Assembly: GCA_028284395.1 (NCBI GenBank)
Contig: JANQRV010000257.1
Coordinates: forward strand, 1 to 64,000
Reading direction: 5' to 3'
Source of the DNA: Saprospiraceae bacterium
Lineage (GTDB): Bacteria > Bacteroidota > Bacteroidia > Chitinophagales > Saprospiraceae
DNA: 64,000 nt
Both the position numbers and the translations under genes were made by a program. This document shows positions 22,714 to 49,909 of this stretch, one piece after another; position 1 is the first letter of the stretch, and each line of letters starts with the position of its first letter. Under the pieces are notes generated by a model that saw only the letters and a program-made list of their open reading frames with translations, had not been told where the DNA came from and did not search any database.

Positions 22714-22820
22714 AGTGTTTCAAGTTTTACTTAAGACGAGACATACTCAATAAGCCAATTTTTTTCAAACATTACAATACTAACATTGTAGTATAAAATC
22801 CATCTGCAGTAAACACCTTG
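22714..22820 (-). repeat. 107-bp spacer, copy A (probable promoter region)
   Basis: This spacer aligns without gaps over most of its length to the 107-bp spacer at 36757-36863. It begins with GTTTCAAGTTTTACTTAA next to the start codon and contains the conserved block ACATTGTAGTATA with a dyad TACAAT/ATTGTA. Both copies lie directly upstream of a CHAT-family start codon, while other gaps in the array are 10-27 bp. A transcription start here is likely but no canonical -7 box is clear. Confidence 0.7.
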
Positions 22821-25800
22821 TTACTTCGCCCATTTAGACTCCCGAGCCCCGATAAACACAAACGGCGCCCAATAATACGGATTGGAATGCTCCCCAGACT
22901 CAATCATTTCCAACTGCGCAGCACGCAAAGGCTGATACTTGTCCGACCCATCTTTCGCCAACTTCGAATAATAATCCAAAAACAGTTGATTAGTCGATTC
23001 ATCAACTACTTCCCAAAGACTTAATATCACCGACGGTGTTCCAGCAAACATCAAGGCTCTTGTGAATCCGATCATACCTTCACCACGCACCAACTGGCCT
23101 AGTCCTGTTTGACAAGCAGCCAACGTCACCAAATCTGCATTGAGATCCAGTTCGAATATTTCATACATATTTAAGCAGCCATCTTCCTCGCCGTCAGGTT
23201 GGAGTAATATGCTACTAAAGTCTGGTGTTTCGGGGTTAATCACACCATGAGTAGCAAAGTGTAGATAACGGTAGTCGCCTAGGGATAGGTTTTTGAATGC
23301 ATTTTCATTCGCACTTTCATCAAGAACCGTCAAAGATTTATTTGAAGGAAACAAACTTCCCAGATGAACTATAGATGCCGCAATCGAGCTTAAATTTGGG
23401 TAATTGCTACTATCATTAGTACAGCTGGTATTGGTGAATTCGGATATCCCTAGACCGAAAAAATCTTGTTTAGCAGTGGCGCTCTGCCCATCTCTTGTTC
23501 TTTCAAAATGTAACAAGGTTGCAGATGGGTAGTAGGTTATGCGGTGTTCTTTTGCGATGTAATGATAATCTTCATAATTCTTCTGTTCTTGGTCCCTGGT
23601 AAGCAGCTCAAATGGCAGATAGTTTAGGAAACCATCGGGAATCAAGATAATCTTGTTATCGCTGAGAAGACCACTCAATCGCAAGGGATTCCAAAGCCTT
23701 TGATACAACTCTCCTGAAATTTCAAAAAAGAGCTTATCTGCCTTGTTTTGCATCATTGGATCACCCCGCTCAATCGCGAGCTTCTGTGCAGGAATGAGAT
23801 CATGGCGAAACCTCTCAATCAATCGGGATAAAGGCTTGGTATCACCTAAATCAAATACTAATATTTTTTTGGGTGTAATCAAAAACACAAGCGCCTTTTC
23901 ACTACCAATAAAATAATTGACAACCACTTCATCATGAGCCATAACGGACTGTACTTGTTTATAATTGACAGCCTGAGGATATACCAGGTTGGCATATTCG
24001 GGAGCAAGCACACGGATGCGATCCTGGAGGATCAACGTTTCAGCAAAAAGGCTGTCTCGCTCCTCGGTCAACATTCTCCTGTTGGCTTTGGGAATGTCGG
24101 TAGTTAAAGTAAAATTGACAGCATTAATTCTGGCCCGAATCTGCTTTAATGGTGTATCGACCTTTCCCGGTAGACTGACTTGAGCAATTTCTTTTTCTGC
24201 CAATAAATCAACTATACCCCGGGCCTTAATTTTCTCTGCAGCATTAAATGCCAACCGATTCTTATTTGTTCTGAAACTACTAAGGATGGCGACTTCTGCA
24301 GCCGGCAAATTCTTTTCCAAAAAAATCTCGCGATCGAGTAGCCCAGAATTGATAGACCTAATGTGATCAAAAAGTTCAAGAGCTTTTATACTATAGATCC
24401 GGGCTGAATCCAATTCCGAATCCTGGAAGTATAAATTAGAAAGCTGGTAACAAATGGAAGCTAACTCGTCGTCAGACCCCAATTTTTTGGCGGCCTTCAG
24501 GGCCTTACGAGTCCATTTAAATGCTTCTTGCTTTCGCCCCAATCTACTATTTACAATCCCGAGATTGTTAAATAAGCTGATAGCTGCCCTGGCTGAATTC
24601 AAGGAATCAAAAACTGGGGAAGCTCTCTCGAACCATTGCAATGCCTTTTTGTTCTCACCTTTCATTAGGTGAGTAGTGCCAAGATGAAGGTAGCAGCCCA
24701 TCAAAAGGAATCTCGCTTGAGAATTTTCAAGTAATTCTCTCGCCTTATGGCAATACTCAAGTGTCAGATCAAATTCTTGCTGGGATTTATACACTTGCCC
24801 GATGTTCATAAGCGTCCTTGCCACGGCAATCGGCCTCCCAAGGCTTTTTTGAATAACCAAGGCTTTTTCGTAGTACTCCAAAGCTTTATGATAGTTTTTC
24901 TGTTTCTCATGTACATAAGCAATGTTATTATATACATCCTTGAGAAATTGCAAATCTTGTCTTCCTTCATAGAATCTCTTGACCTCTTCAAACAATGTCA
25001 TGGCTTCCTGATATCTACCCTCAGCTGCCCTAACTACACCAATTATAAAGTTGGCCGATGCTACTTGAAGTTCATCTCCAATTTCTATTGCAGCATCTTT
25101 TGCTTTTTCCAACCAGTATTGGGCTAAATCATATTGGCCAAGCAACTGGTACACCTCCCCTTTTTTACGAAATGAATCTGAAATGTGTTCTTTATAATTG
25201 TTGCGCTTCTCAACCTCTATCGCAAAATCATAGTTTTGCAACGCCTGATCAAACTGGGTCAGCTCCTGATAAGTCCGGGCCAAATTGAAATACAGCACAT
25301 TGAGGAGGGTATCCGAACCAATCCCTTTCTTGATACTCAATGCCTCAGTAATTTGAGTAACAGCGGTTTCATATCTTCCCAAATGGAAAGCCAACAAACC
25401 CAAGTTGGTGGAACTTTGCATTAGCTGAAAATCATATCCCAATAATTTTGAGATATCATAAGAAAGTTGAAGAAAGCAATTTCCCATTCCGAGATTCCCT
25501 TGCTGCAGGCGCATCAAACCAATGTGGTTAAGGACATCCGCTGTCTCTGTTTTTATGGCAAAAGAAGCATCAAATTGTGCATTAAGCTTGGCCAACGCTT
25601 GCTCAACCTCAGTCTGAGTTCCATGAAACAAACCACTTGCATCTTTAAAAGAAAAATCCTTATATCGAGCGGGAAATTCCGGCGAATACGGTACTCCTTC
25701 TTTGTAAATCCCAGCGTTCTCAAAACTCCCATCCTCTTTGTAAATGATCCAGAAACCATCCTGTGTATCAGGATTGACAGACAAAAGTTTCCCTTCAAAT

Positions 25801-25997: not shown

Positions 25998-26012
25998 GAT
26001 TTCTGGTTTCTT

Positions 26013-29000
26013 TTAAAATTTAGATTCTCGTGCCCCGATAAACACAAACGGCGCCCAGTAATAAGGATTAGAATACTCTCTAGATTTGATCATATCCAGC
26101 TGTGCGGCACGCAATGGCGCATATTTATCCGATCCATCTTTCGCCAACTTCGAATAATAGTCTAAAAACAATTGGTTTGTCGATTCGTCGGCTACCTCCC
26201 AGAGGCTCAAAATTACCGATGGTGTTCCAGCATACATCAAAGCTCTGGTAAAACCCACCATCCCTTCACCCCGCACCAATTTCCCAAGGCCAGTTTGACA
26301 AGCGGCAAGCGTCACTAAATCTGCGTTGAAGTCTAAATCAAAGATTTCGTACATGTTTAAGCAGCCATCTTCTTGGGCGCCAGGCTGAAGGAGTATGCTG
26401 CTAAAATCAGGAGTTTCATCATTAATTACCCCATGAGTGGCGAAATGAAGATAACGGTAGTTAGTTAAATCGAGGGACTTAAAAGCGCTTTCATTGGCTT
26501 GGTCATCCACGATCGTGGTACTTTGGTTTATTGAGAACAAATCCCCCAATCGATCTATTGAAGAAGCAATGGTAACAAGATTGCCGTAGATATTGTCATC
26601 ATTCGTACAATTCGTGTTCTTAAACTCGGAAACGCCTAAACCGAAAAAGTCTCGCTCAGGTATATTTTCCTGGCCTTCTTTTGTCCTTTCAAAATGCAGT
26701 AGGGTTGATGAAGGATAGTAAGAAATTGGGTGATCTTGAATCAGATATTGATAGTCTTGATAATCCTTTTGCTCTTTATCCTTGATAAGCAATTCAAAAG
26801 GTAAATAGTTGAGAAATCCATCCGGAATCAAGATTATCTTTTTACCACGTATCAAGCCAGTAGAATCGAGAGGAGCCCACAGTTTTTCGTAAAGTGAATT
26901 AGAAAACCTAAAAAAAGCCTCATTCTTATTGGATCCTAATTCATCCAATATTAAATCGGGAGTTCCTTTTGCGATTAGACTTTCTCTTAGCTTTCCTAGA
27001 GTATCTGCCAAGGGTGAAGGATTACCTAGGTTTAGTATCTCAAAATCAGCTCTAGTGCATATTCCTGCAAATACATTTTGATTGCCCAGAAAATAGCTAA
27101 TAAGTGCCTCGTCTTCATTTAACACGGTCTGTATCTTTTCCAGGGCAGTAACCTCTAAAGATAGTGATTTGGAAATCTTTGGAGAAATGAGTTTAATTAG
27201 GTCGTTTATCTCCCATTTTTCTTGTTGCAAGCTATCCCTTAGCAAAATTAATTTTGCTCGTTTATCATAATCGAGATCGCCCAAAAGATATTGATCAAGT
27301 CCCTGCAAATTAGACTTAACTTTTTCAGATCTGTCCTTTAAAAAGCTTGACCTTGCAGACTGTTGGAGGTAAGTAGAAAAGATAGCATTCAATCGTTTGA
27401 GTTTACCCAACTGCGAAAAATAGATTGCTTTTTTGTAATCTTTCAATTGAAGGGTCGCTTCTATTCCAATCTCCAGAACTCCCAAATTCTTTCTTGCATT
27501 TAATTGAGAATTCACCGAACCTTCCCATGAGTCACCAAAGTCTCCGACCAGGTTGAAGTATTTTTGGACGTAAAATAAAGTAGAATCATATTTTGACTTA
27601 TAATAGTAGGCATAGGCAATATTGCTGTATGAGGGGTATAATCCTTCTACAACTTGAAGTTTCTCGAACATCTCGATAGCTCTTCGGTACCAAAAAGTTG
27701 CAGATGAATATTGAGCGCCTGCGAAATGTATATATCCGATATTAGTATATGTCCTAGCGAGGTCAGTACTATCCCCTAATTTCTCTTGGATTTCTTTAGC
27801 TCTTTGATGATAGTCGAGAGCAGCTGAAAACAACTTTTGACTCTGATAAGCATAGCCGATGTTGCCATACGTAGATGCTGCTTCTTCCTCTAATTTTAGT
27901 CGCTCACAAATGATTTCCGCTTTACGGAACCATTTTAATGATTCCGTAAATTGATTCTGGGAAAAAAAGGAGGTTCCAATATTATTGTAGACCGAAATGA
28001 GTTCCGGCCCGTTTTCAAACTGCTCAAATATTTCATATGCCTTGGTATACCAGGAAAAAGACTCCGTATACTCACCCAAGTTATGGTATATATTCCCAAT
28101 TTTGTTGTAGGATTTTGCAAGATCAAATGAATGCCCCAATTGTTTTTGTAAATCCTTCCCTCTATGAAACCAGATTAGTGCCTCTCGATTTTGTCCCAGG
28201 CTGAGATAAACTTCTCCCATTTTATCATAGGTACCGGTTAATTCTGAATCGAAAGAGAGTTGTTCTCGAATTTCAATAGCTTTCTGGTACCAGGCAATGG
28301 CCTCTTTAAAGCGATTTTCTTGGTTATGAATAAAACCAATATTATTATAGGAAGTGGCCAACTTTGCCTCAAGACCTAAATTTTTCTGCAAAAAAATAGC
28401 TTTATTATACCACTCCAAAGCTTCAATATACTTCGCTTGTTGTATATAATTATAGCCGATATTGTGAAATGTATTAGCTAACTCCTGGGTTAATCCAAGT
28501 TGTTCCTGAACGGTAATCGCTTTGAAATACCAATCAAGAGCTTCCACATACCTGTTTAGCTTATCAAGGACTATTCCTAAATTATTGTAGGACACAGCCA
28601 ATTGATTCTCTGCTCTGGTATTTTCCCAGATGCCAATAGCTTTACGGTACCAAGTTAATGCCATTTCGAAATCACCTCGTTTCCTCCAAACATAACCTAG
28701 GTTATGATAAGTAATAGCTTTTTCAGATTCCCTTTCGAGAATAGAGGCAATATCATGAGCAAGCTGATAAAGCAAAATAGAAGATTCTAATTCATTTTTG
28801 TTGATGAATAAGCTCCCTGTTCTCAAACACGAATAAATGCCTGCTGAGTCGAGGCTTATTTCATGCTTAAGCAATCGCCCAATTCGGGATAGGTTTCGTT
28901 GTAAATAAGAACTAGAATAGAAAAAACCAGTATCATCAAGAACCCCTTCTTCCTTTCCATCTATGCTCCAAACTCTCAATTTCCCTGCTAGTTCACCGTT

Positions 29001-29300
29001 CTTAAATGTTCCTTGTCTCCTTAATTGACCATTCAAATAGTACCATGAACATAAACCTTCTAAGATCTGAGGATTAGTCGAAGTCATTTGGCCTTCAAAG
29101 AAAAGTTTACCTGTCATGTAAAAGTCTCTCACCTGACCAACCGGTTTTCGGAATTTATCATAAGTAATTATTCGATAGTATTCGGCGTTGTCTCTCGTAG
29201 TTGGCTTCCAGTCTATGGTAAAATATTCGGTTTTCTGAGAGAATAGGAAGAAATTCATCAGTTGAAATATTACCAGCAAAGTTGAAGTTCTTGAAAACAT
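26013..29300 (-). CDS. MORN-TPR-CHAT protease paralogue 2
   Basis: 1095 residues with an ordinary signal peptide (MFSRTSTLLVIFQLMNF, cut near LFSQ) and no lipobox, so a soluble periplasmic or further secreted product is expected. The MORN module is shifted in sequence (TEYFTIDWKPTTRDN). Ten TPRs (about 190-600) are rich in the WYRKAI and YNNIG forms. A linker (about 640-760) lacks the EKSKAR motif of most siblings and reads LGKLKRLNAIFS there. The CHAT pair is H956 and C1001. The stop of the upstream gene is 10 bp from this start, so translation within one transcript is likely. Confidence 0.92.
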   Translation of the reverse strand: MFSRTSTLLVIFQLMNFFLFSQKTEYFTIDWKPTTRDNAEYYRIITYDKFRKPVGQVRDFYMTGKLFFEGQMTSTNPQILEGLCSWYYLNGQLRRQGTFKNGELAGKLRVWSIDGKEEGVLDDTGFFYSSSYLQRNLSRIGRLLKHEISLDSAGIYSCLRTGSLFINKNELESSILLYQLAHDIASILERESEKAITYHNLGYVWRKRGDFEMALTWYRKAIGIWENTRAENQLAVSYNNLGIVLDKLNRYVEALDWYFKAITVQEQLGLTQELANTFHNIGYNYIQQAKYIEALEWYNKAIFLQKNLGLEAKLATSYNNIGFIHNQENRFKEAIAWYQKAIEIREQLSFDSELTGTYDKMGEVYLSLGQNREALIWFHRGKDLQKQLGHSFDLAKSYNKIGNIYHNLGEYTESFSWYTKAYEIFEQFENGPELISVYNNIGTSFFSQNQFTESLKWFRKAEIICERLKLEEEAASTYGNIGYAYQSQKLFSAALDYHQRAKEIQEKLGDSTDLARTYTNIGYIHFAGAQYSSATFWYRRAIEMFEKLQVVEGLYPSYSNIAYAYYYKSKYDSTLFYVQKYFNLVGDFGDSWEGSVNSQLNARKNLGVLEIGIEATLQLKDYKKAIYFSQLGKLKRLNAIFSTYLQQSARSSFLKDRSEKVKSNLQGLDQYLLGDLDYDKRAKLILLRDSLQQEKWEINDLIKLISPKISKSLSLEVTALEKIQTVLNEDEALISYFLGNQNVFAGICTRADFEILNLGNPSPLADTLGKLRESLIAKGTPDLILDELGSNKNEAFFRFSNSLYEKLWAPLDSTGLIRGKKIILIPDGFLNYLPFELLIKDKEQKDYQDYQYLIQDHPISYYPSSTLLHFERTKEGQENIPERDFFGLGVSEFKNTNCTNDDNIYGNLVTIASSIDRLGDLFSINQSTTIVDDQANESAFKSLDLTNYRYLHFATHGVINDETPDFSSILLQPGAQEDGCLNMYEIFDLDFNADLVTLAACQTGLGKLVRGEGMVGFTRALMYAGTPSVILSLWEVADESTNQLFLDYYSKLAKDGSDKYAPLRAAQLDMIKSREYSNPYYWAPFVFIGARESKF

Positions 29301-29310
29301 ATTTTACGTA

Positions 29311-32300
29311 TCAAATTTTGGAATAGCGCTCCCCAATAAACACAAACGGCGCCCAAAAATCAGGATTGGAATAACTATTGATTGATCCAATCATTTTCAG
29401 TTTAGTCGCTCTTAACGGAACAATCTTGTCTTCGGCTCCTTCACTAGTTAGCTCTTCATAATAATTGAAGAACAATTGATTTGTGGAAAGATCCTCTACC
29501 TCCCATAGACTGAGAATGAGGGAAGAACTTCCTGCGTGCATTAGCGCGTGTGTAAACCCGACCATTCCTTCGCCCTTGACTAATTTGCCGAGAGCAGTTT
29601 CGCATGCTGATAAAGTAACCAAATCAGCATTTAGTTGAAGGTCAAATATTTCATAAAGATTCAAGCATCCATCTTCAAATTCTCCCGATTGGAGCAATAT
29701 ACTACTGAATTCAGGCATTTCTGAGTTGATGATACCATGAGTAGAGAAGTGCAGGTAGCGGTAATCACTTAAAGCAGCTTTTTTAAGGTTTCCCTCATTT
29801 GCGCTTTCATCGATAAGGACCGCAGAGCGTTCCTTTGGAAATAGGCTCTGAATGGCATTGATATGAAGAGTCTGATTTGACAAGTCACCGAAAAATCTGC
29901 CGGTATTGGTGCAATTGGCATTTTCAAATTTGGAGTTAGCGACACCAAAAAAATCCAATGGGGGCTTCCGCTGATTCGAAGAATCAACCCGATAGTAATG
30001 GAATGATGTAGCGGATGGATAATAGGAAATCCCGTATTCTCTAATCAGATATTGATATTCTGAGTACTCCTTCTGCGTTTTATCTTTTATGATTATTTCA
30101 AATGGTAAATAATTTAGGTAGCCATCCGGAACCAAAATTATCTTCTTATGTTCCAAAAGTCCAGTTGAATCCAACTTTGCCCAGATTGCCTGATAAATAT
30201 TCTGGGAGATCTGAAAGAATTTTTCGTCAAGGTTAATCTGTTTGAGACGGTCATCTTTGAGCAAAACAATTTTTTGTTGCTCGATAAACTCCTGTCTAAA
30301 TCTATCAACTAACTTACTAATCTCGGCGGACGATCCAAGTTTAAGTGATTTCTTTGTCTCTTGAGCGATTATTAAGGCAAAAACGTCAGCACCATTGATT
30401 GAGAAACTAATAAGTACTTCATCCCTATTTAGCACATCCTGGATTTGTTTAGAATTGGCAGTTTTAGGATAAACTAGGCTCATAAAATTCGGAGCGTTAA
30501 TTCTTCCTTGTTCTGTAACATCCCTCAATAATTGATAGAGGCTATCCCGTTCTCTAATTAGATCTTTTCTGACCTTAACATTTAAATTTCTATTCAAATA
30601 TTGGTTGATCGAAATAAGTTGACTTTCAACGGATTCATATCTTCTCCGGAGCCACGACGGAATTTTTTTTGAGTCATTGGCCCCTTGAACAATCAGATCA
30701 GAAAGTTTACCTGCTCGTTCTTTCTCCGAAAGTGTAAAAGCCATTTCGAAATCCTCCATTAAAAATGCACACTCCAAAGCAATTTCCAGGGCATCAAGAC
30801 TTTCATTCACAAAGGATTGACGATGATCCTCTAATTTGTTAGTGCTTCTCAATCGATCGTTGATTTCGATATTCTTGATAGCATAATATAGTGCCGAATC
30901 AAGGCGGTTATAATCGTGGTAATAAATCGAAGACATTTTCAGATAGGCCCTTGATAATTCTATCTCCAAACCCAGTCTTTTAGCGGTTTTTATTGCCTCT
31001 TTGTACCATAATATAGCACGAGAAAGCTCTCCGGACAGTTGAAGGTTTTCAGCAATTGCCCTGTAGCTTCTAGGGAGGGTTGATTCAAAACCTAATTTCT
31101 CTTGAATATCCTTCGCCTTATGATGGAAAATCAATGCTAAACTGTAGTTCTTTTTAGAAAAAAAGATATCTCCAAGATTGTTGTAAGTCTTTGAAAGTTC
31201 AGCCCTATAGCCGTAATTTTCCTGCAATTCCATGGCCTTCTTCTGCCATTTCAGCGCTTCGTCAGTTTTACCTAAATGGTAAAATACATGGCCGATTTGG
31301 CCTAAAGTCAAGGAATAAAACCACGTCTCATTTTCCAAATCTTCGAAAAGATCCAGTGCTTTTTTATGCCATGCAAGTGCCTCCAAATAGTCTTTACGAA
31401 AGCCGTGCAATGTAGCGATATTATTACAGGACATAGCAAGACTAAGTTTTGCATTCAACTTCAAAGAGATTTCTCTGGCTTTCTGGTACCACTTTAAAGC
31501 AGCATCAAGATTTCCTATATTGCGATAGGCCACGCCCATATTGTTGTAGATTGTAGCCAACTTGTCATCCATATTCGATTGCTCTACTAACTCTCTGGCT
31601 TTATTGTAAAAGTCCAAGGCCTTCTCTGGTTTGCCTTTCTTTCTGTAGATTATGCCAATATTGCTGTAAGTACCGGGAAGTAAATTAATTAGTGCCAATC
31701 TTTCCTGAATATCTCTTCCAGCTTCATAAAAGGAAAGAGCCAGATCAAAATTCCCTAGAAGATCGTGGATTCCGCCCATATTGCTAAAGGAAATAGAGAG
31801 TGACGTTTTCTGATCTAGACGCTCTTCGATCTCAATTGCTTGGCCGTACCATTTTAATGCTTGCTGAAAGTCACCAGTTATGCGGTAGAAATAGGCAAGC
31901 TCTTCGTAGCATTTAGCTAATTTATTCTCCTTCTTTTCTTTCCACGAGATATCATGTGCCAGCTGAAATAATTTCAAGGATTCCTTGTATATTTTTTCAC
32001 GAATGAGTGCTTTACCAATGTTGAGCAATTCATCAATCGAGGTGGTGTCAAATTTTAGACCGAAAGGAACTCCAACTTGGTTGAAGATGTTCAAGGCATA
32101 ATCCTCTGAGAAGAAATAACCGTCCTTACTGATTACCCCTTCTTCTTTTCCCTCTTCACTCCATATCCGGACGGTACTGAGAGCTCTTCCATTTTGATAG
32201 AAGGCTTCCTTTCTTTTTTCTCCATTTTGGTGATACCAAGTACATTTTCCCTCATAGGCATTCGGATTCACCGAAACCATCTTTCCTTCAAAAAGCAATT

Positions 32301-32490: not shown

Positions 32491-32505
32491 AATTTCTTGA
32501 TTCAT

Positions 32506-36756: not shown

Positions 36757-36863
36757 AGCGTTTCAAGTTTTACTTAAATCGAGACAACATCAATAAGCTA
36801 GTTTTTCTTGATCGATGCAATACTCACATTGTAGTATAGAATCTATAAGAACGAAAATTTTTC
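36757..36863 (-). repeat. 107-bp spacer, copy B (probable promoter region)
   Basis: The spacer has the same length as copy A at 22714-22820 and aligns with it without gaps, sharing GTTTCAAGTTTTACTTAA next to the start codon, CAATAAGC, and CACATTGTAGTATA. Divergence is highest in the 25 bp next to the upstream gene's stop. It separates the 49319-36864 group from the 36756-22821 group. Confidence 0.7.
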
Positions 36864-39800: not shown

Positions 39801-40289
39801 AAGTCCTCCAATTCCAAGAAGAAAGTTTCTAGTCGTCGAATCAAAAGCCAAATCCTGACTTAATGACTGCTCCATTTCTTCAAGAAAACTTGAGAGATAG
39901 GATCGTGAAAAGAAAAGTCCACTTACATCAAATACCCCCTCTTCTTTTCCTGCTTCGCTCCAAGTTCTAATTGTACTTGTTGCCCTGCCACGTTCGTAGG
40001 TTATCTGCTGGCGTTTATGTCCATTCTGGTAATACCAGGTACAAACACCATCGAAGACATGAGGATCTACGGAAAGCAGCCTCCCTTCGAACTGTAATTC
40101 ACCAGTGATAAAATAGTCCCGCACTTTACTTGTAGGCCTGCCATTGGTGTCATAAGTGATTTCGCGGTAATATGCTGCATTTTCCCCTGAGTCCACTTTT
40201 TTCCAATCGGCATCGAAATATTCAATGGTTTGAGTTTTCATGGAGCAAGAAGCAAGCAAACACAATGTTAGGATAAGATTTGATTTCAT
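36864..40289 (-). CDS. MORN-TPR-CHAT protease paralogue 5, predicted lipoprotein
   Basis: 1141 residues. The signal peptide MKSNLILTLCLLASCSMK has a clear lipobox LASC (C15), so the enzyme is likely lipid-anchored in the periplasm or at the outer membrane. The MORN module keeps WYYQNGHKRQQITYERG. Eleven TPRs (about 190-640) closely follow the SYNNIG / WYxKAxEIRERLGLE consensus. The linker has SEKGKARGLSDILSEKG. The CHAT pair is H999 and C1044. The C terminus has three extra residues (DSKWPNR) compared with siblings ending ESKF. It is 18 bp behind the next upstream gene and is the last gene before spacer B. Confidence 0.93.
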   Translation of the reverse strand: MKSNLILTLCLLASCSMKTQTIEYFDADWKKVDSGENAAYYREITYDTNGRPTSKVRDYFITGELQFEGRLLSVDPHVFDGVCTWYYQNGHKRQQITYERGRATSTIRTWSEAGKEEGVFDVSGLFFSRSYLSSFLEEMEQSLSQDLAFDSTTRNFLLGIGGLAYENRDYYWAKHISKITYDLSNILGDSLSMTLSLGYIGRTFDAESKYQEALTWYLKAAKIQERYEAKAYLADSYNSIGGVYHNTGKYEEALNWYNKSRQIRESLELEAACANSYNNIGELKRLQGKFEEAISLHQLAIEIRVKKRLEKLLASSYNNIGEVYFSMGDYPRARSWYNQARAIGEKLDLKGHLVRSYNKIGTAYQAQGIYDQALVWYHKAKEKAELLNFQRELAKSYNNIATVHESKGDLSEALKWHQQATEIRERLGLEVDLSGSYNNIGGIFAFRTEFEEALVWYYKAKEIRERLGLELDLAYTYNHIGGVYYQQGKYEEALVWYHKSKDLREKYGLRSLVIISYNNIGLVHRAQKDYLEALDWFNKARSIEEKHHLENGLASSYNNIGLTYQSAGYFRESLEFLHRAREIQEKLELERDLTTSYYNLSSSFWLVQEMDSALLYAQKSIHLNEQIREANASHTDRQLFVSKSMSAIELGITSAFSIGKVTPAFAISEKGKARGLSDILSEKGLHETVPLPDSLLVPTRVILNRIQAIEKELATDLVSEKRSRLRKQRKVLFQNWQELQAQIRTVAPEYSNLIYETTVQADHLQSVLSKDEVLVSYFVGTVNTFVFLITSSALEMIDLGPSDSLKRLIDQFQSEFIPKQKLTIKRNDPLTQGLLDEQFFKLSHDFYKKLWLPFDSSDLLLNKKIVLIPDGFLNYLPFELLIKDNVQKDYQNYYYLVQDHPISYYPSATLLYSERTKEKQVEPPPKDFFGLGVSQFTDINCTIDGNAYSNLSSIAASINRLRDLFSSNLSAAILDEQVTEGAFKSLDLVNYRYLHFATHGVINTETPDFSSILLQPDDQEDGCLNMYEIFDLNFNADLVTLAACQTGIGKLVHGEGMVGFTRALMYAGTPSVILSLWEVTDESTNQLFLDYYLKLAKDGSDKYAPLRATQLGMIKSGEYSNPYYWAPFVFIGTRDSKWPNR

Positions 40290-40307
40290 AAATTGCTTTG
40301 AAGTAAT

Positions 40308-43300
40308 TTAGAATTTCGACTCCCGACCCCCAATAAACACAAACGGCGCCCAGTAATAAGGATTGGAATACTCTCCTGAATCTATCATCTTCAATTGGGC
40401 AGCTCTCAAAGGCGCATATTTATCCGATCCGTCTTTTGTCAATCTGGAATAATAGTCTATATACAATTGATTGGTTGATTCATCAGCAACTTCCCAGAGG
40501 CTTAAAATCACCGATGGGGTGCCAGCATACATCAAAGCTCTGGTAAAGCCCATCATCCCTTCTCCTTTAAGCAATTTGCCCAGACCAGTACCACAGGCAG
40601 AGAACGTTATCAGGTCTGCATTGAATTCAAGTTCAAAGAATTCATACAGGTTCAAACAACCATCTTCCTCATCCGACGGGTGTAGCAAAATCCGGCTAAA
40701 AGCTGGATTTTCTGCATTCACCACGCTATGAGTTGAAAAATGTAACCTTTTGTAGTTCTCGAGGTTTTCCCTTTTAAAATTCTCTTCGCTTGCCTCCAAG
40801 TCAACTAGTATCCGAGAATCTTGATCTATATAATTTTTTGCAATCGTTTTTAGCTCAGAAGTGGAATGCGGAAGTGGATGAAAAATCTCTCTTGATTCTT
40901 CATAACAATTATTGTTAGAAAAATCCGCCACTCCTACACCAAGAAATTCCTGGGCTGCGACGACTGGTTTCCTCTCGTTCTTTCGTTCAAGATGGAATAC
41001 AGTTGCAGATGGATAATATGAAATTTCATAATCACGAATCAGGTAGTTATAATTTTGAAAGTCCTGTTTTTCCTTTTTTGGTATCAATAACTCGAAGGGC
41101 AAGTAATGTAATGTTCCATCCGGTACCAAAAGTACTCTCTTATTTGAAGTAAATTCTCTTAATTTTAAAGGTTCCCAAAGAAGCTTATGCAAGGAGTTGG
41201 CAAAAAATGCAAATTCAGTATTCAATAGATCCTCTTGTAGTTTGTCACCCCTAACAATCGCTTTTTTTTGCTTCGTGAGATATTGACTTTTGAACTCCTG
41301 GATAAGAGTACCAATTGCACTTACTCCAAATAGAGGCACTGTTTTAAAGCTATCTTTAGTAACGCAAAAAGCATATGATTGCACTGCCCCCAAGTAGTAT
41401 TCAATTAGTATTTCATCATCTGCCAACACATTTTGGGTTTGGTTAATGGAAACAGGTTCCGGATACGACAGATCGGCAAATTCTGGCGCCAACAGTCTTA
41501 TTCGATCCTCAATCGCTAAATGTCTCCTGTAAAGACTGTCCCTGATCAGGATTAACTCTCTTCTTCTCTCGACTGGAATTTGCTGGGCCAATTGGAGATT
41601 TACGGAACTTAGTTCTCTTTTCACCAATCTCTTATCTTCAGATATTCCCGCTGGCAAGCTCGAAATTGACATCGTCTTTTCAGACAACAAATCAGATAAA
41701 CTACGAGATCTAAGCCCTTCGGCAACCTCAAAGGCCAATGCAGGCTTGTCAACTTGGATTGCTGCGTTAACAGCTATCTCAGCAACATTTAGATTTTTAT
41801 TGACAAACAACCAACGGTGAATCTGCCCCTTATTTAATTGCCGCGTACGTTCATTCAAATGAATACTCGTCTGCGCATATATCAAGGCAGAGTCTAACAG
41901 CGAAGAATCATAAAATGTGCGGGCAATATTACCATAAAGAGTACCTAGTTCGACCTTCAAACCTAATCTTTCACCAATTTCCTTCGCCTGATCAAACCAT
42001 TCTAGTGCTTCCGCATGTGAATCAACGGACTGATAGATTAATCCAATGTTGTTTTTGGTAATCAGGAGATCCAATTCCAAGCCTAATCTTGTTTGAATTT
42101 CATGTGCATTAGACAGCCAGTAGAGTGCTTTTTCATCGCTTCCTTGGAGACGATACAGTTCGCCGATATTTTTACATGAAATGGCTAGATCGATCTCCAG
42201 CCCTAATCTTATCCCAATTTCTAGTGCTTTGTTAAACCAGCCCAATGCCCGATCATGATCACCTTGAAAAAAGGACAATTCTCCGATATTATTATATGTA
42301 ACAACTAGATCAACCTCCAAGCCTAATCGCTCTCGAATTTCTCGCGATTTGGTAAACCATATCATCGCTTGATCATATTCTCCTAGTTCACGATATACTG
42401 CAGCAATATTATGATATGAGTTGGCTAATTCATTCTTTGGCTCCAATTTTTCCTGAATTGATTTGGCCTTATCGAACCAATCCAGCGCTTCCGTAAAATT
42501 CCCTTGAAAACGGTTTAACATCCCAATATTATTATAAGATCGAGCTAAATCACTTTCCAGATCCAACTTAGACTGAATATTTTTTGCTTTAGCATACCAA
42601 TTCAATGCTTCCGGGTAATTGCCCAGGGCACGATAAATTACTCCCTTATTGTTAAATAGAATGGCTAGCTCAGCCTCAAATCCTAATCTTTTCAAAATTG
42701 GTTCAGCCATATTATACCAAACCAACGCCTTAGCGTATTTCCCTTGCGAATCATAGACGCCTCCTATATTATTGTATGAGATAGCAATATATCTATCATT
42801 TTGAGCGATCTTTGAAAAATCGTGAACTAACCGAAACAATCGCAATCCATCTTCAAAATTTCCACCCTCAATCCGCTTGAATCCTTCTAAAAACAAGATT
42901 TTAATTGACGTTGATTCGGCCGACAAACTCTGCCTAACCTCCTGACTTAGAGCTACTAATTCGGCATCTCGATAATCAGCAGAAAAGAAAAACCCGCTCT
43001 CATCCAGCACTCCTTCTTCCTTTCCTTCCACGCTCCAGTTTCTAACAGAACTGATCAACACCCCTTTTTGATAGCTAGCCTCTTTCCTTCTTTGTCCGTT
43101 TTGGTAATACCAAATACATAGTCCATTTAAGGTATCTGGATTTACGGTGACCAGTTCCCCCACAAACTGCAGTTCTCCGGTGATGTAGTAATCCTTAACG
43201 ATTCCTATTGGTTGGCCATTCCGGTCGTAGTCTATCTCTCGATAAAATGACGCGCTTTCCTCCGAACTCAATCGCTTCCAATCTGCATCATAGTATTCAA

Positions 43301-43364
43301 TAGTCTGAGAGCACAAGGAACAAGAAGCCAATAAACATAGTATTAGAAATAGATTTGTTTTCAC
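40308..43364 (-). CDS. MORN-TPR-CHAT protease paralogue 6, predicted lipoprotein, shortest TPR tract
   Basis: 1018 residues, lipobox LASC (C15) in MKTNLFLILCLLASCSLC. Eight TPRs (about 195-520) make this the shortest sensor of the array. The CHAT His stands in FSTHSVVN (H879), where the family almost always has His-Gly. The Cys is C924 in FSACGTGLG, against CQTGLG in most siblings. The His-Cys spacing is unchanged, so activity is plausible but the loop differs. The middle and CHAT N-terminal parts are also more divergent, yet the last 70 residues match the array consensus closely, a mosaic pattern. Confidence 0.92.
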   Translation of the reverse strand: MKTNLFLILCLLASCSLCSQTIEYYDADWKRLSSEESASFYREIDYDRNGQPIGIVKDYYITGELQFVGELVTVNPDTLNGLCIWYYQNGQRRKEASYQKGVLISSVRNWSVEGKEEGVLDESGFFFSADYRDAELVALSQEVRQSLSAESTSIKILFLEGFKRIEGGNFEDGLRLFRLVHDFSKIAQNDRYIAISYNNIGGVYDSQGKYAKALVWYNMAEPILKRLGFEAELAILFNNKGVIYRALGNYPEALNWYAKAKNIQSKLDLESDLARSYNNIGMLNRFQGNFTEALDWFDKAKSIQEKLEPKNELANSYHNIAAVYRELGEYDQAMIWFTKSREIRERLGLEVDLVVTYNNIGELSFFQGDHDRALGWFNKALEIGIRLGLEIDLAISCKNIGELYRLQGSDEKALYWLSNAHEIQTRLGLELDLLITKNNIGLIYQSVDSHAEALEWFDQAKEIGERLGLKVELGTLYGNIARTFYDSSLLDSALIYAQTSIHLNERTRQLNKGQIHRWLFVNKNLNVAEIAVNAAIQVDKPALAFEVAEGLRSRSLSDLLSEKTMSISSLPAGISEDKRLVKRELSSVNLQLAQQIPVERRRELILIRDSLYRRHLAIEDRIRLLAPEFADLSYPEPVSINQTQNVLADDEILIEYYLGAVQSYAFCVTKDSFKTVPLFGVSAIGTLIQEFKSQYLTKQKKAIVRGDKLQEDLLNTEFAFFANSLHKLLWEPLKLREFTSNKRVLLVPDGTLHYLPFELLIPKKEKQDFQNYNYLIRDYEISYYPSATVFHLERKNERKPVVAAQEFLGVGVADFSNNNCYEESREIFHPLPHSTSELKTIAKNYIDQDSRILVDLEASEENFKRENLENYKRLHFSTHSVVNAENPAFSRILLHPSDEEDGCLNLYEFFELEFNADLITFSACGTGLGKLLKGEGMMGFTRALMYAGTPSVILSLWEVADESTNQLYIDYYSRLTKDGSDKYAPLRAAQLKMIDSGEYSNPYYWAPFVFIGGRESKF

Positions 43365-43376
43365 GATTCTTAGGTT

Positions 43377-46300
43377 TTAGAATTTAGACTCCCGAGACCC
43401 GATAAACACAAACGGCGCCCAGTAAAAAGGATTAGAATACTTACCCGATTCAATCATCTTCAATTGTGCAGCACGCAGAGGTGCATATTTATCCAATCCA
43501 TCTTCCGCTAACTTCGAATAATAATCTAAAAACAATCGATTAGTTGATTCATCAGCTACTTCCCATAGACTTAGAATTACCGATGGGGTGCCGGCATACA
43601 TTAGCGCTCTAGTAAAACCCACCATGCCCTCTCCTCTCACCAATTTACCTAGTCCAGTCTGACAAGCAGCCAGCGTCACCAAATCTGCTTTAAAGTCCAG
43701 CTCAAATATTTCATACATATTCAAACAGCCGTTCTCTTGGTCATCAGGTTGCAGTAATATGCTGCTAAATTCCGGTGTTTCAGCGTCAATAGTCCCATGA
43801 GTAGCAAAATGCAGGTACCGGTAATCAATCAAGTCCAAAGATTTGAACGCGCTTTCACTCGCTTGCTCATTGAGTATGGTCACACTTTGATTTGAGCTGA
43901 ATAAGTTGGCCAGTTGATCTACTGAGGTCGCTATTGTACTCAAATCAGCGTAGACATTGCCATCATTAGTACAATTGGTGTTTTTGAAGTCAGTAATACC
44001 CAGTCCAAAGAATTCCTTGCTTGGAATTTCTGTCCCCTTTTTTTTCGTCCTTTCATAGTGTAGCACGGTGGCCGATGGATAGTAGGAAATGGTATGATCA
44101 TGAATCAAGTAATTGTACTCCTCGTAAGTCTTTTGCTCCTCGTCGTTAATGAGCAGCTCAAATGGCAAATAATTGAGAAAACCATCTGGGACTATGATGA
44201 CTTTCTTGTCTTTGAAAAGACCAGTAGAATCCAATGGTGACCACAGCCTTTGATATAGCTCACTAGACAATTCAAAGAACTGCTCATCAACACCACTCTG
44301 CAATATCGCATCTTGCCTCTGAATGGCTAGTTTTTGGCTAGCAACCAAATTACTCCGATAATCTTCTACCAAAAGTCTTAAGCTATCTGAAGAGCCAAGG
44401 TCAATCATTTCTATCGCTAAAGGAGTTGCCACAAAAGCAAAAGAATGCCTATACCCCGTAAAGTAGCTGATCAGCACTTCCTGAGGCTGCAATATGGATT
44501 GTAATTTTATTGTATTGGTGGTCTCCGGATAAACAAGATTAGCATACTCCGGAGCCAGTACTTTAATCTGGTCCTCTATTTCCTGCAGAACTCGATATAA
44601 ACTATCCCTTTGCTCGCCTAAATTTTGACGTTTTGCCTTTGGAATCTCCGAAGCCAATTCTTGCTGTACTGTCTTAAGTTTTTTTCTTAGCAATCCAAAT
44701 TCTGTCATAACAACTTCGGATAAGCTTAGATCCTCGATAGACTTTTCTGCAAGTAGGTCTGACATAGCACGAGCTTTTGTTTTTTCGGAAAAAGCAAAGG
44801 CAAGTGAATGCTTTTCTAACTGATAAGCACTTAAAATTCCAGTCTCAATAGGCTCCAGATTTTTATCCACAAAAAGTTGGCGATCGGTTTTTCCTTGATT
44901 AGTCCTACGTAAATCTTCATTTAGCTCTATACTCATTTGAGCATAGAACAAAACGGAGTCCAAGCGATGCAAATGATAGTAAGCGAAGGAAATATTATGG
45001 TAAGTGTTTTCTAGATCTACTCCTAATTTCAACCTTTCTTGAATTTCCTTTGCTCTAGCATACCATTTCACCGCCTGCTCGAAATCTCCTTGAGAATGAT
45101 AGACAAATCCGATATTGTTATAGGATCGAGCCAGATCCACCTCTAGTCCTAAGCTGTCTCGAATCATCCTAGCTTGATTGTACCAACTGAGGGTTTGTCG
45201 ATATTTGCCCTGAGATTGAAAGACCATACCTATATTACTATAAATGGCAGCTAATTTTGCTTCCCGTTCTATTCTCTCTTGAATATCTTTAGCTTTATGG
45301 TACCAAATCAGCGCTTGTTCATATGCACCTTGGGCAAAATAGGCTAACCCGATATTGTTGTAGGAAACTGATAATTCTGCCCACAAGTCCAACTTTTCTT
45401 GAAGATCTTTAGCCCGTTTATGCCAAGTGAGAGCTTGTTCATATTTACCCTGGGAGTAAAAGACCATACCAATATTGCCATAAGATTTTGCCAAATCCAC
45501 TTCTAGGCCCAAGCTATCTCGAATTTCCCTAGATTTGTGGAACCATATGAGAGCTCGTCCATATTTACCCTGTGACTGATGAACCAATCCTAAATTGCTA
45601 TAAGAATCAGCCAAGTTCACCTTTAAATCTAATTCCAACTGAATACCTTTGGCTTTATTGATCCAACTGAGAGCTTGTTCATATTTACCAAGATAATAGT
45701 GAACCATTCCAAAATTACTATAGGAAGAAGCCAAGTTGACAGGCAGGCCCAGCCTTTTTCCAATATCTATTGCCTTACTCAACCAAATGAGCGCTTTTTC
45801 ATAACTGCCTTGAAAAGTATAGACCATCCCAATATTATTATAGGAAGAAGCCAAGTTCACCTTCAGACCAAGCCTCCGTTCAATCTCCATTGCCTTTTTA
45901 TGCCAGATGAGGGCTTGTTCGTAACTACCCTGAAAGGTATGAACCCTCCCAATATTATTATAGGAGGAAGCCAAGTTGACAGGCAGGCCCAGCCTTTTTC
46001 CAATATCTATTGCCTTACTCAACCAAGTGAGCGCTTGTTCATAATCACCTTGAGAAAGATAGACCACACCTATGTTGTTGTAGTAAGAAGCTAAGTTTTC
46101 CTCTCGCCCTTCAATACTCACGGCCTTCTTAAACCAAATGAGAGCTTGTTCATTTTTTCCCTGTAATTTGTAGACAGATGCAATATTACTGCAAGAACTA
46201 GCTGACTCCTTCTTAAGACCCAATCTTTCTTCAATGCTTAAAGCTTTATTAAGCCATTCGAGCGCTTCTTCGTATGCACCAAGGTGAATGTAAACCTCTC

Positions 46301-46907
46301 CTATATTGTTATACGTTATGGCTAGTACTCCTTCATGATCAAGCAACCTAGCTACATCATGAGACAGTTGGAAAAAGGCTAGCCCAAAGTTCAACTCACC
46401 TTTATTTACCAAAGACACTCCTATTCTTGATAAAAGATTAATTGAAGAAGAGTCCACTCCCAGTTCTTGCCCAAAAGCTTCTTGAAATGCTCTCAAATTA
46501 TCATTGCGATAAGCAACAGAATAATAGAATCCACTCTCGTCCAACACTCCTTCTTCCTTACCTTCTTCACTCCAATTTCTGGTTGGACCTACTGCAACTC
46601 CATTTTCATAAATCACCTCCTGGCTTTTTTGTCCATTCCGATGATACCAAATACAGGTCCCGTTCATGGTATCTGGATTTACGGTGACCAATTCTCTTAC
46701 AAACTGCAGTTCTCCGGTGATGTAGTAATCCCTAACAATTCCTAATGGTCGGCCAGTCTGGTCGTAGGTAATCTCTCGATAGTACTCAGCCTTTTCTTTG
46801 GATTCAATTCGATTCCAGTCTGTATCATAGTATTCGGTAGTGAACTGACCCTGTATGGGAGCAGAAACAAACAGTAAAAGCAAAATGAATATCATGCGAT
46901 TGACCAT
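43377..46907 (-). CDS. MORN-TPR-CHAT protease paralogue 7, next to caspase gene
   Basis: 1176 residues with an ordinary signal peptide (MVNRMIFILLLLFVSAPIQG). The MORN module contains ELQFVRELVTVNPDT, shared closely with paralogue 6. About twelve TPRs (about 190-670) are the most regular in the array, most with the ASSYNNIG / EQALIW consensus, and two units are a recent duplication (see 45721-46020). The CHAT pair is H1037 (FATHGTID) and C1082 (LAACQTGLG). The gene starts 27 bp after the stop of the caspase-fold gene, so the two are probably cotranscribed. Confidence 0.93.
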   Translation of the reverse strand: MVNRMIFILLLLFVSAPIQGQFTTEYYDTDWNRIESKEKAEYYREITYDQTGRPLGIVRDYYITGELQFVRELVTVNPDTMNGTCIWYHRNGQKSQEVIYENGVAVGPTRNWSEEGKEEGVLDESGFYYSVAYRNDNLRAFQEAFGQELGVDSSSINLLSRIGVSLVNKGELNFGLAFFQLSHDVARLLDHEGVLAITYNNIGEVYIHLGAYEEALEWLNKALSIEERLGLKKESASSCSNIASVYKLQGKNEQALIWFKKAVSIEGREENLASYYNNIGVVYLSQGDYEQALTWLSKAIDIGKRLGLPVNLASSYNNIGRVHTFQGSYEQALIWHKKAMEIERRLGLKVNLASSYNNIGMVYTFQGSYEKALIWLSKAIDIGKRLGLPVNLASSYSNFGMVHYYLGKYEQALSWINKAKGIQLELDLKVNLADSYSNLGLVHQSQGKYGRALIWFHKSREIRDSLGLEVDLAKSYGNIGMVFYSQGKYEQALTWHKRAKDLQEKLDLWAELSVSYNNIGLAYFAQGAYEQALIWYHKAKDIQERIEREAKLAAIYSNIGMVFQSQGKYRQTLSWYNQARMIRDSLGLEVDLARSYNNIGFVYHSQGDFEQAVKWYARAKEIQERLKLGVDLENTYHNISFAYYHLHRLDSVLFYAQMSIELNEDLRRTNQGKTDRQLFVDKNLEPIETGILSAYQLEKHSLAFAFSEKTKARAMSDLLAEKSIEDLSLSEVVMTEFGLLRKKLKTVQQELASEIPKAKRQNLGEQRDSLYRVLQEIEDQIKVLAPEYANLVYPETTNTIKLQSILQPQEVLISYFTGYRHSFAFVATPLAIEMIDLGSSDSLRLLVEDYRSNLVASQKLAIQRQDAILQSGVDEQFFELSSELYQRLWSPLDSTGLFKDKKVIIVPDGFLNYLPFELLINDEEQKTYEEYNYLIHDHTISYYPSATVLHYERTKKKGTEIPSKEFFGLGITDFKNTNCTNDGNVYADLSTIATSVDQLANLFSSNQSVTILNEQASESAFKSLDLIDYRYLHFATHGTIDAETPEFSSILLQPDDQENGCLNMYEIFELDFKADLVTLAACQTGLGKLVRGEGMVGFTRALMYAGTPSVILSLWEVADESTNRLFLDYYSKLAEDGLDKYAPLRAAQLKMIESGKYSNPFYWAPFVFIGSRESKF
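45721..46020 (-). repeat. Recent TPR-unit duplication inside paralogue 7
   Basis: 45721-45780 and 45961-46020 differ at only one of 60 positions and lie exactly 240 bp apart, that is two 120-bp TPR units. The unit between them (45841-45900) is related but clearly more diverged, so the exchange unit is a pair of TPRs. It encodes the repeated IDIGKRLGLPVNLASSY stretch. Confidence 0.85.
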
Positions 46908-46934
46908 AAGAAGAGATTTGGTTAGTGGGATGAT

Positions 46935-49319
46935 TTATGTGCTATGCAAAAAGACCTTGCAAGTAGGTGTCAATCCCGAATACATCGATTTTGAGGGGTC
47001 CGGCAAGCCAAAGAGCAGCATCTGTCCATCTGCCCACCGGAAAGGCAGTTGAGTAAATAGCCCTGTGGTAAAATCTAAGGCATATGGCACTGGAGTACCT
47101 TGAACTTCCAACTTTACGGAAGGAAAGTTGATTCTAAGTGGCATAGTGTTGTTGATCACATCTTGTTGAATTAGCTCAAAAAACGCCAGAACACTTACTC
47201 CTTCTGATCTATGATATCCTTCAGCCAGCAGAAATGGCTCGAAAAAAGCACCATTTTCCAAACTCATATTTACTGGTGCCATCATCCCATGCGTAGCCTC
47301 TTCGAAAGAACAGAACATCAACTGCCCTGAAAATGATTGCGGCGCCTGGACCGTCAATCCCAAACCAGAGATAGCTTTTCCTCTGGAGAGTGGTTCAGTA
47401 ATCCAGGGTCGGCGTACCTTTAGGCAAATCTCTTGGGTGATCCAGTTCGTGTATCGAATTTGTAAAGGGTCGGGCTGATCTCTCAGTCCTTCTACTACCT
47501 CCATCCGGGGAACACCGGCCTGATTGTAATCATCCGTATTCAACTCCGTTCTGGATAAAAACAACTTGAGGTAGTCTGCTGTCTCTGTAACGCCCAAATC
47601 GTGATAAGCATCTGCGATTTGCAATGGAATGGTGCGATACGGATGGTCCTTGAAAATGTCTTCTGCCCATTGTTCTTCACCTGGTTGAAGTTCTCGTTTG
47701 GGCAGCAATTGATTGGTAATACCAAAATGGTCATCCATAAATAGCAGGCTGACCCAGAGATTATGCCGCCCCATATTTTTGATCTTTAGCCGAAAAGCAG
47801 GATGATGCCATTTGCCTCCAGATAAAACATAAGGTAAATGCACTGGTCCATTCAAAGGGACCAATTCGGCGGGAGCATCATCGGTGTAATTGCCAGGTTC
47901 AGAGATTCGATAAAGGCTGATCTCGAAATCGTCCTCCGTTATGGTACTATGTGGATTGGTCAATTCCAATACCTGTTTCCACTTGGCCATTTTTTCGACT
48001 TTGCCTATAAAGTCTTCCAGTTTAGAAATGTCCAACTGCTTAAAAAGAGGTTTTTGGCTGGACTTAAAATTCAAGCTAAGTCCGGCCTTTTCAGCAAGGA
48101 TCGAATATTCTCCTGCCTCAGGGTCGGTAGACAGCTCTATAACTTTGGATGGTGATTGTAACAATGTTCCTTTAATGGTACGACCTATTTCAGGATCGCC
48201 GTTTGGGTCTATTGCAATTGGCACTAAGGGGCTGGCTAGACTCACTAACTCAGCCTGATATATTTGTTTATGATCTAGTGTTCCAGATCCTGCTAATACT
48301 GCATGCGTGGGGTGTACTTCAACCACAGCCAATCTTATCCGTGAATCCAGTAATTCGAACACTGTCTCCGTAACATCATCTCCTAATTTAATACCGTCAA
48401 TCGCGCCTGCATTGACCGTCCATTCACCATTTTTTTGACGGCTAACCAGGTAGGTTTTCTTCTCGGCTAGGTGTTGGCCGTCCAGGAATTTGCGGCGTGT
48501 ATCTTCCTGGTGTATGACATCGATTTGAGGTGACTGTTTAGGTACCAGATTTGAGACACGCAAATTGACCCGGTCCATGATCCGGGCATATGATAGTGGC
48601 TGACCGCTGTTTTGCAGAGTCTCAATGAGACTGTAGCTAAAGACACCTCTCGGCTGTCGTTTGCAATAGACTTCTTTGGCTGTTTCGGTAGATTTGGCAG
48701 CAGATAGTAGTACATGCCGAGCTCTGGGAGGACTCAAAGCACCGTCCTCTCCTTTTTTGTAATGCTCAATACCCAAGTAGCTTTCCAAAGTCTTTCCTTT
48801 GGTATTGGCTTTCGCCATTCTGACTGCCTCATATACCGGCAAATCGTCGGGGTCAATCCTGGTATTTAAACCGGAATAGCAACAATCCATAATGACAACA
48901 AAATGAACATCCTTGTTTTTTGTGGCTTCCCAAATCAAGTAAGATAATTCTTTGTCGACCAAGTCTTCGCCGTCCTTGATTCGGCTATCCCAGCAGACAA
49001 GGGTTTGTAGTTTATGGTCGGATTCTAAATGCCAAAAGGCTTCCGGAGCAGGGATGCGCGATCCATGGCCTGCGAAATAAAACAGGCAGCTATCTCCATC
49101 TTTTGCTTCTTTATAATGTTCGAACGCCTCAATAATCTGGTCCTTTGTGGCAGCCTCATCTTTCAAAATTTTGGGCTGGTATTCAATTCCTTGCTGCTCC
49201 ATGTAATGCTCCAAATATTGATGGACTGCTTGAAGGTCATTGAGGCAACCACGCAACCGGTGCTCACGCCTGGGGTAGTTGTTGATTCCAATTAGTATGG
49301 CATATAGTTTTTTCGTCAT
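46935..49319 (-). CDS. Caspase-fold (peptidase C14-like) protein with long C-terminal region
   Basis: 794 residues without a signal peptide, so likely cytosolic. Residues 1-290 form a metacaspase-like domain: YAILIGINNY at the start, GCLNDLQA near residue 25, the catalytic His in FYFAGHGSR (H85) and Cys in IMDCCYSG (C147, in the DxCxSG form), and later PRGVFSYSLIETL. The remaining about 500 residues have no recognised enzyme motif. One part (RLKIKNMGRHNLWVSLLFM) resembles the beta-sandwich DUF4384-type extensions of bacterial caspases. It heads the minus-strand array, with a possible promoter box 21 bp upstream, and is divergent from the two-component genes. Arg/Lys specificity typical of metacaspases would be expected, by analogy only. 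Confidence 0.92.
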   Translation of the reverse strand: MTKKLYAILIGINNYPRREHRLRGCLNDLQAVHQYLEHYMEQQGIEYQPKILKDEAATKDQIIEAFEHYKEAKDGDSCLFYFAGHGSRIPAPEAFWHLESDHKLQTLVCWDSRIKDGEDLVDKELSYLIWEATKNKDVHFVVIMDCCYSGLNTRIDPDDLPVYEAVRMAKANTKGKTLESYLGIEHYKKGEDGALSPPRARHVLLSAAKSTETAKEVYCKRQPRGVFSYSLIETLQNSGQPLSYARIMDRVNLRVSNLVPKQSPQIDVIHQEDTRRKFLDGQHLAEKKTYLVSRQKNGEWTVNAGAIDGIKLGDDVTETVFELLDSRIRLAVVEVHPTHAVLAGSGTLDHKQIYQAELVSLASPLVPIAIDPNGDPEIGRTIKGTLLQSPSKVIELSTDPEAGEYSILAEKAGLSLNFKSSQKPLFKQLDISKLEDFIGKVEKMAKWKQVLELTNPHSTITEDDFEISLYRISEPGNYTDDAPAELVPLNGPVHLPYVLSGGKWHHPAFRLKIKNMGRHNLWVSLLFMDDHFGITNQLLPKRELQPGEEQWAEDIFKDHPYRTIPLQIADAYHDLGVTETADYLKLFLSRTELNTDDYNQAGVPRMEVVEGLRDQPDPLQIRYTNWITQEICLKVRRPWITEPLSRGKAISGLGLTVQAPQSFSGQLMFCSFEEATHGMMAPVNMSLENGAFFEPFLLAEGYHRSEGVSVLAFFELIQQDVINNTMPLRINFPSVKLEVQGTPVPYALDFTTGLFTQLPFRWADGQMLLFGLPDPSKSMYSGLTPTCKVFLHST

Positions 49320-49878: not shown

Positions 49879-49909
49879 GTTTGACCAGCCCCCCCTCCAA
49901 CAGTTATCT

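Follow-up and report, generated by a model that had tools for sequence, protein, structure and literature searches.

We tentatively explain the seven tandem TPR-CHAT genes analyzed here and the metacaspase-like gene that precedes them as abutting modules and not as one caspase-headed cascade, with the exported TPR-CHAT proteins possibly acting as envelope sensor proteases that feed membrane-spanning signaling switches. The caspase is part of its own conserved two-component signaling unit, and a module of sigma factor, TPR-bearing anti-sigma-like protein, and exported TPR-CHAT is widespread in Saprospiraceae. The window, by which we mean the whole stretch of 64,000 nucleotides analyzed, comes from a Saprospiraceae bacterium whose genome (653 contigs, 95% completeness, 6% contamination) is, on these figures, probably a metagenome assembly.

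Layout of the array

The seven CHAT genes and the caspase gene of the preliminary description were all found where it had placed them, on the minus strand. G1 (43377..46907, 1176 aa, H1037/C1082), G2 (40308..43364, 1018 aa, H879/C924, with THS and ACG variants flanking the dyad), G3 (36864..40289, 1141 aa, H999/C1044), G4 (32506..36756, 1416 aa, H1277/C1322), G5 (29311..32505, 1064 aa, H923/C968), G6 (26013..29300, 1095 aa, H956/C1001), and G7 (22821..25997, 1058 aa, H917/C962) share one order of parts: signal peptide, MORN-like module of ~100 residues, TPRs, and C-terminal CHAT. All seven reading frames and dyads are intact. The caspase gene is the start-side neighbor of G1, co-directional and 27 bp upstream of the array.

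From the caspase to G7, the intergenic gaps are 27, 12, 18, 107, 0, 10, and 15 bp. The earlier account of gaps of 10-27 bp with a single 107-bp spacer is thus right for most of the array, except at G4-G5 (0 bp, or 15 bp from a second Met) and in overlooking a second 107-bp spacer. The first copy (36757..36863, minus strand) lies between G3 and G4 and probably marks the start of a second transcription unit. The second (22714..22820, minus strand) leads to an orphan N-terminal MORN-like module of 125 aa (22336..22713, minus strand) without TPR and CHAT, which is a probable remnant. The two homologous copies are 80% identical across 90 bp and are the only ones in the whole genome; as the second precedes the orphan module, we extend the array to 22336, beyond the previous limit of 22821. 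Scans for sigma-70 promoters and terminators gave results at or under shuffled expectation. The orphan module ends at 22336 in a stop that the start of a neighboring gene (18314-22339) overlaps; the large product of this gene has SprB-like repeats, an IgGFc-binding-like domain, and a T9SS sorting domain. Within G1 only, one TPR stretch (45663-46044) is still a tandem repeat at the DNA level (3.2 copies of a 120-bp unit), which points to TPRs that expanded recently.

N-terminal module and predicted location

The four-part plan with a MORN element stands insofar as the seven share an N-terminal module (31-62% identity), and the name MORN is the weak part of it: MORN_2 scores 25.6 bits in G6, under its cut-off of 29.6, and is without a match at E 0.001 in the other six. 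The module is predicted to be all-beta, and weaker relatives of it were found elsewhere in the phylum; no open-access paper was found that treats the MORN repeat together with the CHAT domain. The array CHAT proteins are predicted to be exported. At the site of predicted signal-peptidase cleavage, each of the eight module copies, the orphan included, has an invariant Gln, which fits the Q-rule of Bacteroidetes signal peptides (PMC5837995). G2 and G3 also have a lipobox-like LASC, so some members may be lipoproteins. We considered T9SS-dependent secretion to the surface and rejected it, as no sorting domain was matched in any of the seven. The caspase is without any hydrophobic segment or signal peptide. 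We accordingly predict the CHAT proteins to be extracytoplasmic and the caspase to be cytoplasmic, and with such separate predicted compartments, direct mutual cleavage of caspase and CHAT proteins is unlikely.

A constrained catalytic domain and diverged TPR arms

Each of the seven proteins combines many TPRs with a CHAT domain of full length (PF12770, E 1e-59 to 1e-64, about 3-289 of the 289 profile positions), and scores of about 202-219 bits against a cut-off of 24 place all of them in the CHAT family. The motifs FxTH(G/S) for His and (A/S)AC for Cys are present in 7/7, and the claimed distance of exactly 45 residues between the two holds throughout. Such a spacing is an unremarkable property of the fold, since the published pairs are 42 residues apart in CsbCHAT (H585/C627; PMC9729208) and 43 in Csx29 (H615/C658; PMC10028731). 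A comparison of the CHAT profile by sequence with solved structures found no related structure. The structure model of G2 is good for the TPRs and poor for CHAT (pLDDT below 50), and its fold matches are TPR proteins and separase at low TM-scores because the CHAT part was modeled poorly.

In the catalytic-Cys block (50 columns), G1, G3, G4, G6, and G7 share 88-100% of their amino acids but only 32-66% of fourfold-degenerate sites; G2 and G5 stand further off (74-86%) and keep the dyad. As amino acids are conserved while synonymous sites have diverged, the CHAT domain is under purifying selection. Recent gene conversion as the source of the CHAT likeness is ruled out by the same diverged sites. 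The TPR regions of array members are 22-43% identical to one another. With CHAT constrained and the TPRs diverged, a single catalytic output with diverged arms is well supported, and the use of these arms as many separate sensors is plausible; the seven CHAT domains are probably active proteases.

The caspase and its conserved partners

The metacaspase-like gene (46935..49319, minus strand) encodes 794 aa with a long beta-rich C-terminal region and a PF00656 p20 domain (E 2e-21) that has the catalytic His and Cys, placing it in the caspase family. H85 and C147, previously described as intact, are both invariant across an alignment of 26 relatives. The caspase profile aligns to yeast and trypanosome metacaspases over p20 and p10 (E 8e-25), and the best PDB matches of the structure model (pLDDT 83) are metacaspase folds. 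Relatives were collected by an alignment-based scan that gave 80 loci, a single-sequence scan of genome contigs having matched none. Longer paralogues of about 1130 aa (L147, L153, L154, and L171) have a C-terminal alpha/beta-hydrolase-like domain (DUF7379/lipase-like) that is absent from the window caspase, and caspase-hydrolase fusions occur in more than one phylum. In cyanobacteria, relatives of the window caspase (L180, L182, L192, L198, and L221) are often beside very large caspase and nSTAND-matching proteins.

On the opposite strand, 172 bp from the caspase gene, run the genes for a small protein of no known family that marks the caspase module (49492..49878, plus strand, 128 aa), a TPR-histidine kinase (49847..52090, plus strand) with a signal segment, predicted periplasmic TPRs, a TM segment at about 460-485, HisKA_3, and HATPase_c, and a LuxR-type response regulator with Response_reg and GerE (52087..52713, plus strand). 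The small protein occurs in 16/398 Saprospiraceae genomes, 13 of which have a window-type caspase beside it. Kinase and regulator adjoin it in 14/16, contig ends hiding them in the remaining two (G611 and G563). Leaving aside the window's own genome, the caspase is adjacent to the small protein in 12/15; the exceptions are a contig end (G721), a genome with only a caspase-nSTAND gene about 7 kb off (G760), and a weak small-protein match (G095). The caspase match beside the small protein is short in one genome (G576), and all four genes are co-oriented in five. Eight intergenic regions between caspase and small protein contained no common palindrome or convincing shared word that could serve as a shared operator.

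A TPR-CHAT gene near this module was found in 0/15 other genomes within the fetched flanks, some of which are cut by contig ends; the absence is firm only for the larger flanks, since some are short (5 to 12 kb contigs). Linkage of array and caspase is thus not conserved among relatives, and the preliminary description's placing of the caspase at the head of the CHAT system is not supported by the comparison: the constant partners of the caspase are the TPR-histidine kinase and the LuxR regulator, with TPR-CHAT genes beside them in the window only. It follows from the separate conservation of this unit that caspase and array were brought together in this lineage.

The membrane protein, p304, and CHAT-nSTAND1 triad

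Beyond the regulator lies a triad on the plus strand: a membrane protein (52866..54338) whose roughly 330 extracytoplasmic residues are flanked by one TM segment on the N-terminal side and two on the C-terminal side, an exported protein of no known family, p304 (54335..55249), and a 685-aa protein (55239..57296) combining a CHAT-like part with His/Cys motifs, an nSTAND1 NTPase (E 5e-16), and a C-terminal TM segment. The membrane protein has no Pfam match to CHASE2 at E 1, and only its membrane layout is CHASE2-like; its homologue adjoins p304 and CHAT-nSTAND1 at two other loci (L098 and L145). On contig C24 of the same genome, the triad is divergent from a MORN-like TPR-CHAT, with CHAT-nSTAND1 85% identical to that of the window and the other two proteins 38-49%. 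A second caspase, with a signal peptide, was noted 7 kb from the C24 TPR-CHAT (L098, 10118-11698). In Phaeodactylibacter mag.14 (L145), the triad adjoins the small protein and the caspase, and the 7.7-kb contig has no TPR-CHAT. This copy of p304 came from a separate scan, and 150 sampled genomes gave no further occurrence. N-domains of the CHAT-nSTAND1 type are near several other caspase modules (L152, L157, L159, and L163).

Sigma, anti-sigma-like, and exported TPR-CHAT loci

CHAT lies within 5 kb of 13/19 members of one sigma subfamily in the genome (crude binomial P 2e-15, with contig ends ignored), and the sigma/anti-sigma-like/TPR-CHAT module is found on contigs C553, C278, C214, C244, C642, C446, C263, C607, C416, C388, C273, C145, and C570. 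Among 40 such sigma loci in relatives' genomes (L253-L292), a partner gene is present in 39 and a TPR-CHAT within about 6 kb in 25. The partner, which usually lies between or beside sigma and CHAT, crosses the membrane once and bears TPRs in the part on the far side; its place in the locus, its layout, and weak zf-HC2 matches lead us to infer that it is an anti-sigma factor. The TPR-CHAT of C570 (L015, 6369-9395) is fused to an anti-sigma-like N-terminus, with a TM segment between, and the second array of the genome, on C273, begins divergently from a sigma/partner pair. The window itself has one locus of this kind, in which another TPR-CHAT, probably a lipoprotein (7325-10399, plus strand), converges with a single-TM anti-sigma-like gene (10439-11260, minus strand) and an ECF-like sigma gene (11257-11859, minus strand). 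The seven-gene array has no sigma and single-TM anti-sigma-like pair of its own. It is mainly because exported TPR-CHATs often adjoin such pairs in Saprospiraceae that we prefer envelope signaling over cell death. No open-access paper describing the module was found, and CHAT domain and anti-sigma came together in the Csx29 paper only.

Origin of the array and rival explanations

Array members group with the genes on C252 and the gene on C24 in a single clade (100/100) that excludes the remaining CHATs of the genome, in a tree whose bootstrap had not settled. Small sets of TPR-CHATs with the MORN-like module also occur beside a kinase/response regulator pair (G016, L099) and beside sigma/anti-sigma (G170, L101). 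As part of the explanation we favor, the array may be a lineage-specific bank that grew through tandem duplications immediately downstream of the caspase.

That an expanded TPR-CHAT family came by chance to lie beside an unrelated caspase module, with no functional link, is a rather unlikely alternative. In its favor, the genome has 42 CHAT and 23 caspase matches, the linkage is absent from all other module genomes within the fetched flanks, and the 12-kb contig of the sister array, C252, is without a caspase. Against this, the 27-bp gap suggests co-transcription, and the triad accompanies the caspase module of another species (L145) and a TPR-CHAT on C24. A looser link between caspase and array is favored by a genome-wide count, in which 4/23 caspases are within 5 kb of a CHAT, more than expected at a crude P of 0.008 that counts the window itself and ignores contig ends, and by the caspase/TPR-CHAT neighbors that recur in some other lineages.

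We consider it improbable that caspase and array form one proteolytic death or defense system in which the TPR-CHATs would detect an invader and switch on the caspase, or vice versa. Such a system could be argued from the co-directional caspase and array with their 27-bp gap, from recurring caspase/TPR-CHAT neighbors in other lineages (L154, in Saprospiraceae, with a 45-bp gap; L190, L193, L197, and L215) and on contig C46 of G016, where MORN-like TPR-CHATs, CHAT-nSTAND1, and a different caspase lie within about 20 kb, and from the caspase, CHAT, and nSTAND domains that typically feature in bacterial conflict systems (PMC8195603, PMC10907252). However, orthologous caspases are not beside TPR-CHATs, the fixed partners of the caspase are a kinase and a regulator, caspase and CHATs are in predicted different compartments, and PADLOC matched the array to generic TPR and caspase models only. 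Of the multi-sensor proteolytic signaling or death system first proposed, then, signaling remains plausible on the strength of constrained CHATs and diverged TPR arms, and nothing specific to death or phage defense was found for the array. Far less probable still would be degradative or degenerate CHAT proteases, amplified by duplication and without a signaling role. Tandem duplicates with one orphan module at the array end could be read in that manner, but a catalytic stretch strongly constrained at diverged synonymous sites and the intact frames and dyads of 7/7 genes speak against it.

A possible mechanism

Starting from what is observed, namely the anatomy of the array, its intact catalytic residues, the selection on CHAT, and the gene neighborhoods, the abutting-modules explanation can be stated as a mechanism in which the place of the array proteins in the cell, their proteolysis, the ligands they sense, the target they cut, and their control are inferred. 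The first module would be an envelope-sensing switch of small protein, kinase with predicted periplasmic TPRs, LuxR regulator, and cytoplasmic metacaspase, the last a likely output of the regulator. The second would be the seven exported TPR-CHATs, probably in part co-transcribed with the caspase, so that the array may fall under the same regulator. The third would comprise the membrane protein, p304, and the membrane-anchored CHAT-nSTAND1. Each exported CHAT could sense an envelope or extracytoplasmic ligand through its own TPR arm and, once triggered, cleave an extracytoplasmic substrate common to all seven, the likeliest being a membrane-spanning signaling partner; at the array, this partner would be the kinase/regulator/caspase module. 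If so, the TPR-CHAT bank would be a set of envelope sensors with a route from TPR recognition to transcription, and the conserved small protein/kinase/regulator/caspase module would give a direct handle on what bacterial metacaspases respond to.

It could further be speculated, with considerable doubt, that Bacteroidota of the family Saprospiraceae follow a general scheme of extracytoplasmic proteolytic signaling, in which exported TPR-CHATs, single or in arrays whose sensor arms have diverged, cut membrane-spanning switches, either a TPR-bearing anti-sigma factor or, at the array, a TPR-histidine kinase controlling a metacaspase. Such a scheme would be an envelope counterpart of the Csx29/Csx30/sigma cascade.

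Comparison with known systems

Most of what is known of CHAT proteases comes from Csx29, HetF, and conflict systems. The array shares with Csx29 of type III-E CRISPR (Craspase) a TPR arm and the CHAT His/Cys dyad, at a spacing of 42-43 there and 45 here (PMC10028731, PMC9729208), and Csx29, a TPR-CHAT, can cleave the inhibitor of a sigma factor (PMC10028731). Unlike Csx29, which has Cas7-11 as its partner, the array proteins are predicted to be exported, have a MORN-like module, and stand seven in tandem; among the window proteins scanned, no Cas7-11 (gRAMP) or other CRISPR gene was recognized by domain. HetF of Anabaena, the CHAT founder, is likewise a CHAT and TPR protein acting at the membrane (PMC8406250), but differs in its N-terminal CHAT, its TM segment, its being a single gene, and its role in cell division and heterocysts. 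Caspase/STAND conflict systems, including EACC1 and EACC2, resemble the window in combining caspase and CHAT effectors with STAND NTPases, whereas the window showed no vWA, MoxR, or effector-associated domain, and its caspase scores 43.5 bits with the EACC1 caspase model (NF047832), under the cut-off of 140. With metacaspases (Mca1, MCA2, and plant MC4/MC9), the window caspase has in common p20 and p10 with HGS and DCC motifs; unlike them, it has an extra 500-aa C-terminal region, and its gene is accompanied by those of a histidine kinase and a response regulator. Beside these systems stands a tandem bank of predicted exported CHATs whose catalytic domain is constrained and whose TPR arms diverge, in a family that repeatedly encodes such proteins next to sigma/anti-sigma or kinase/regulator pairs.
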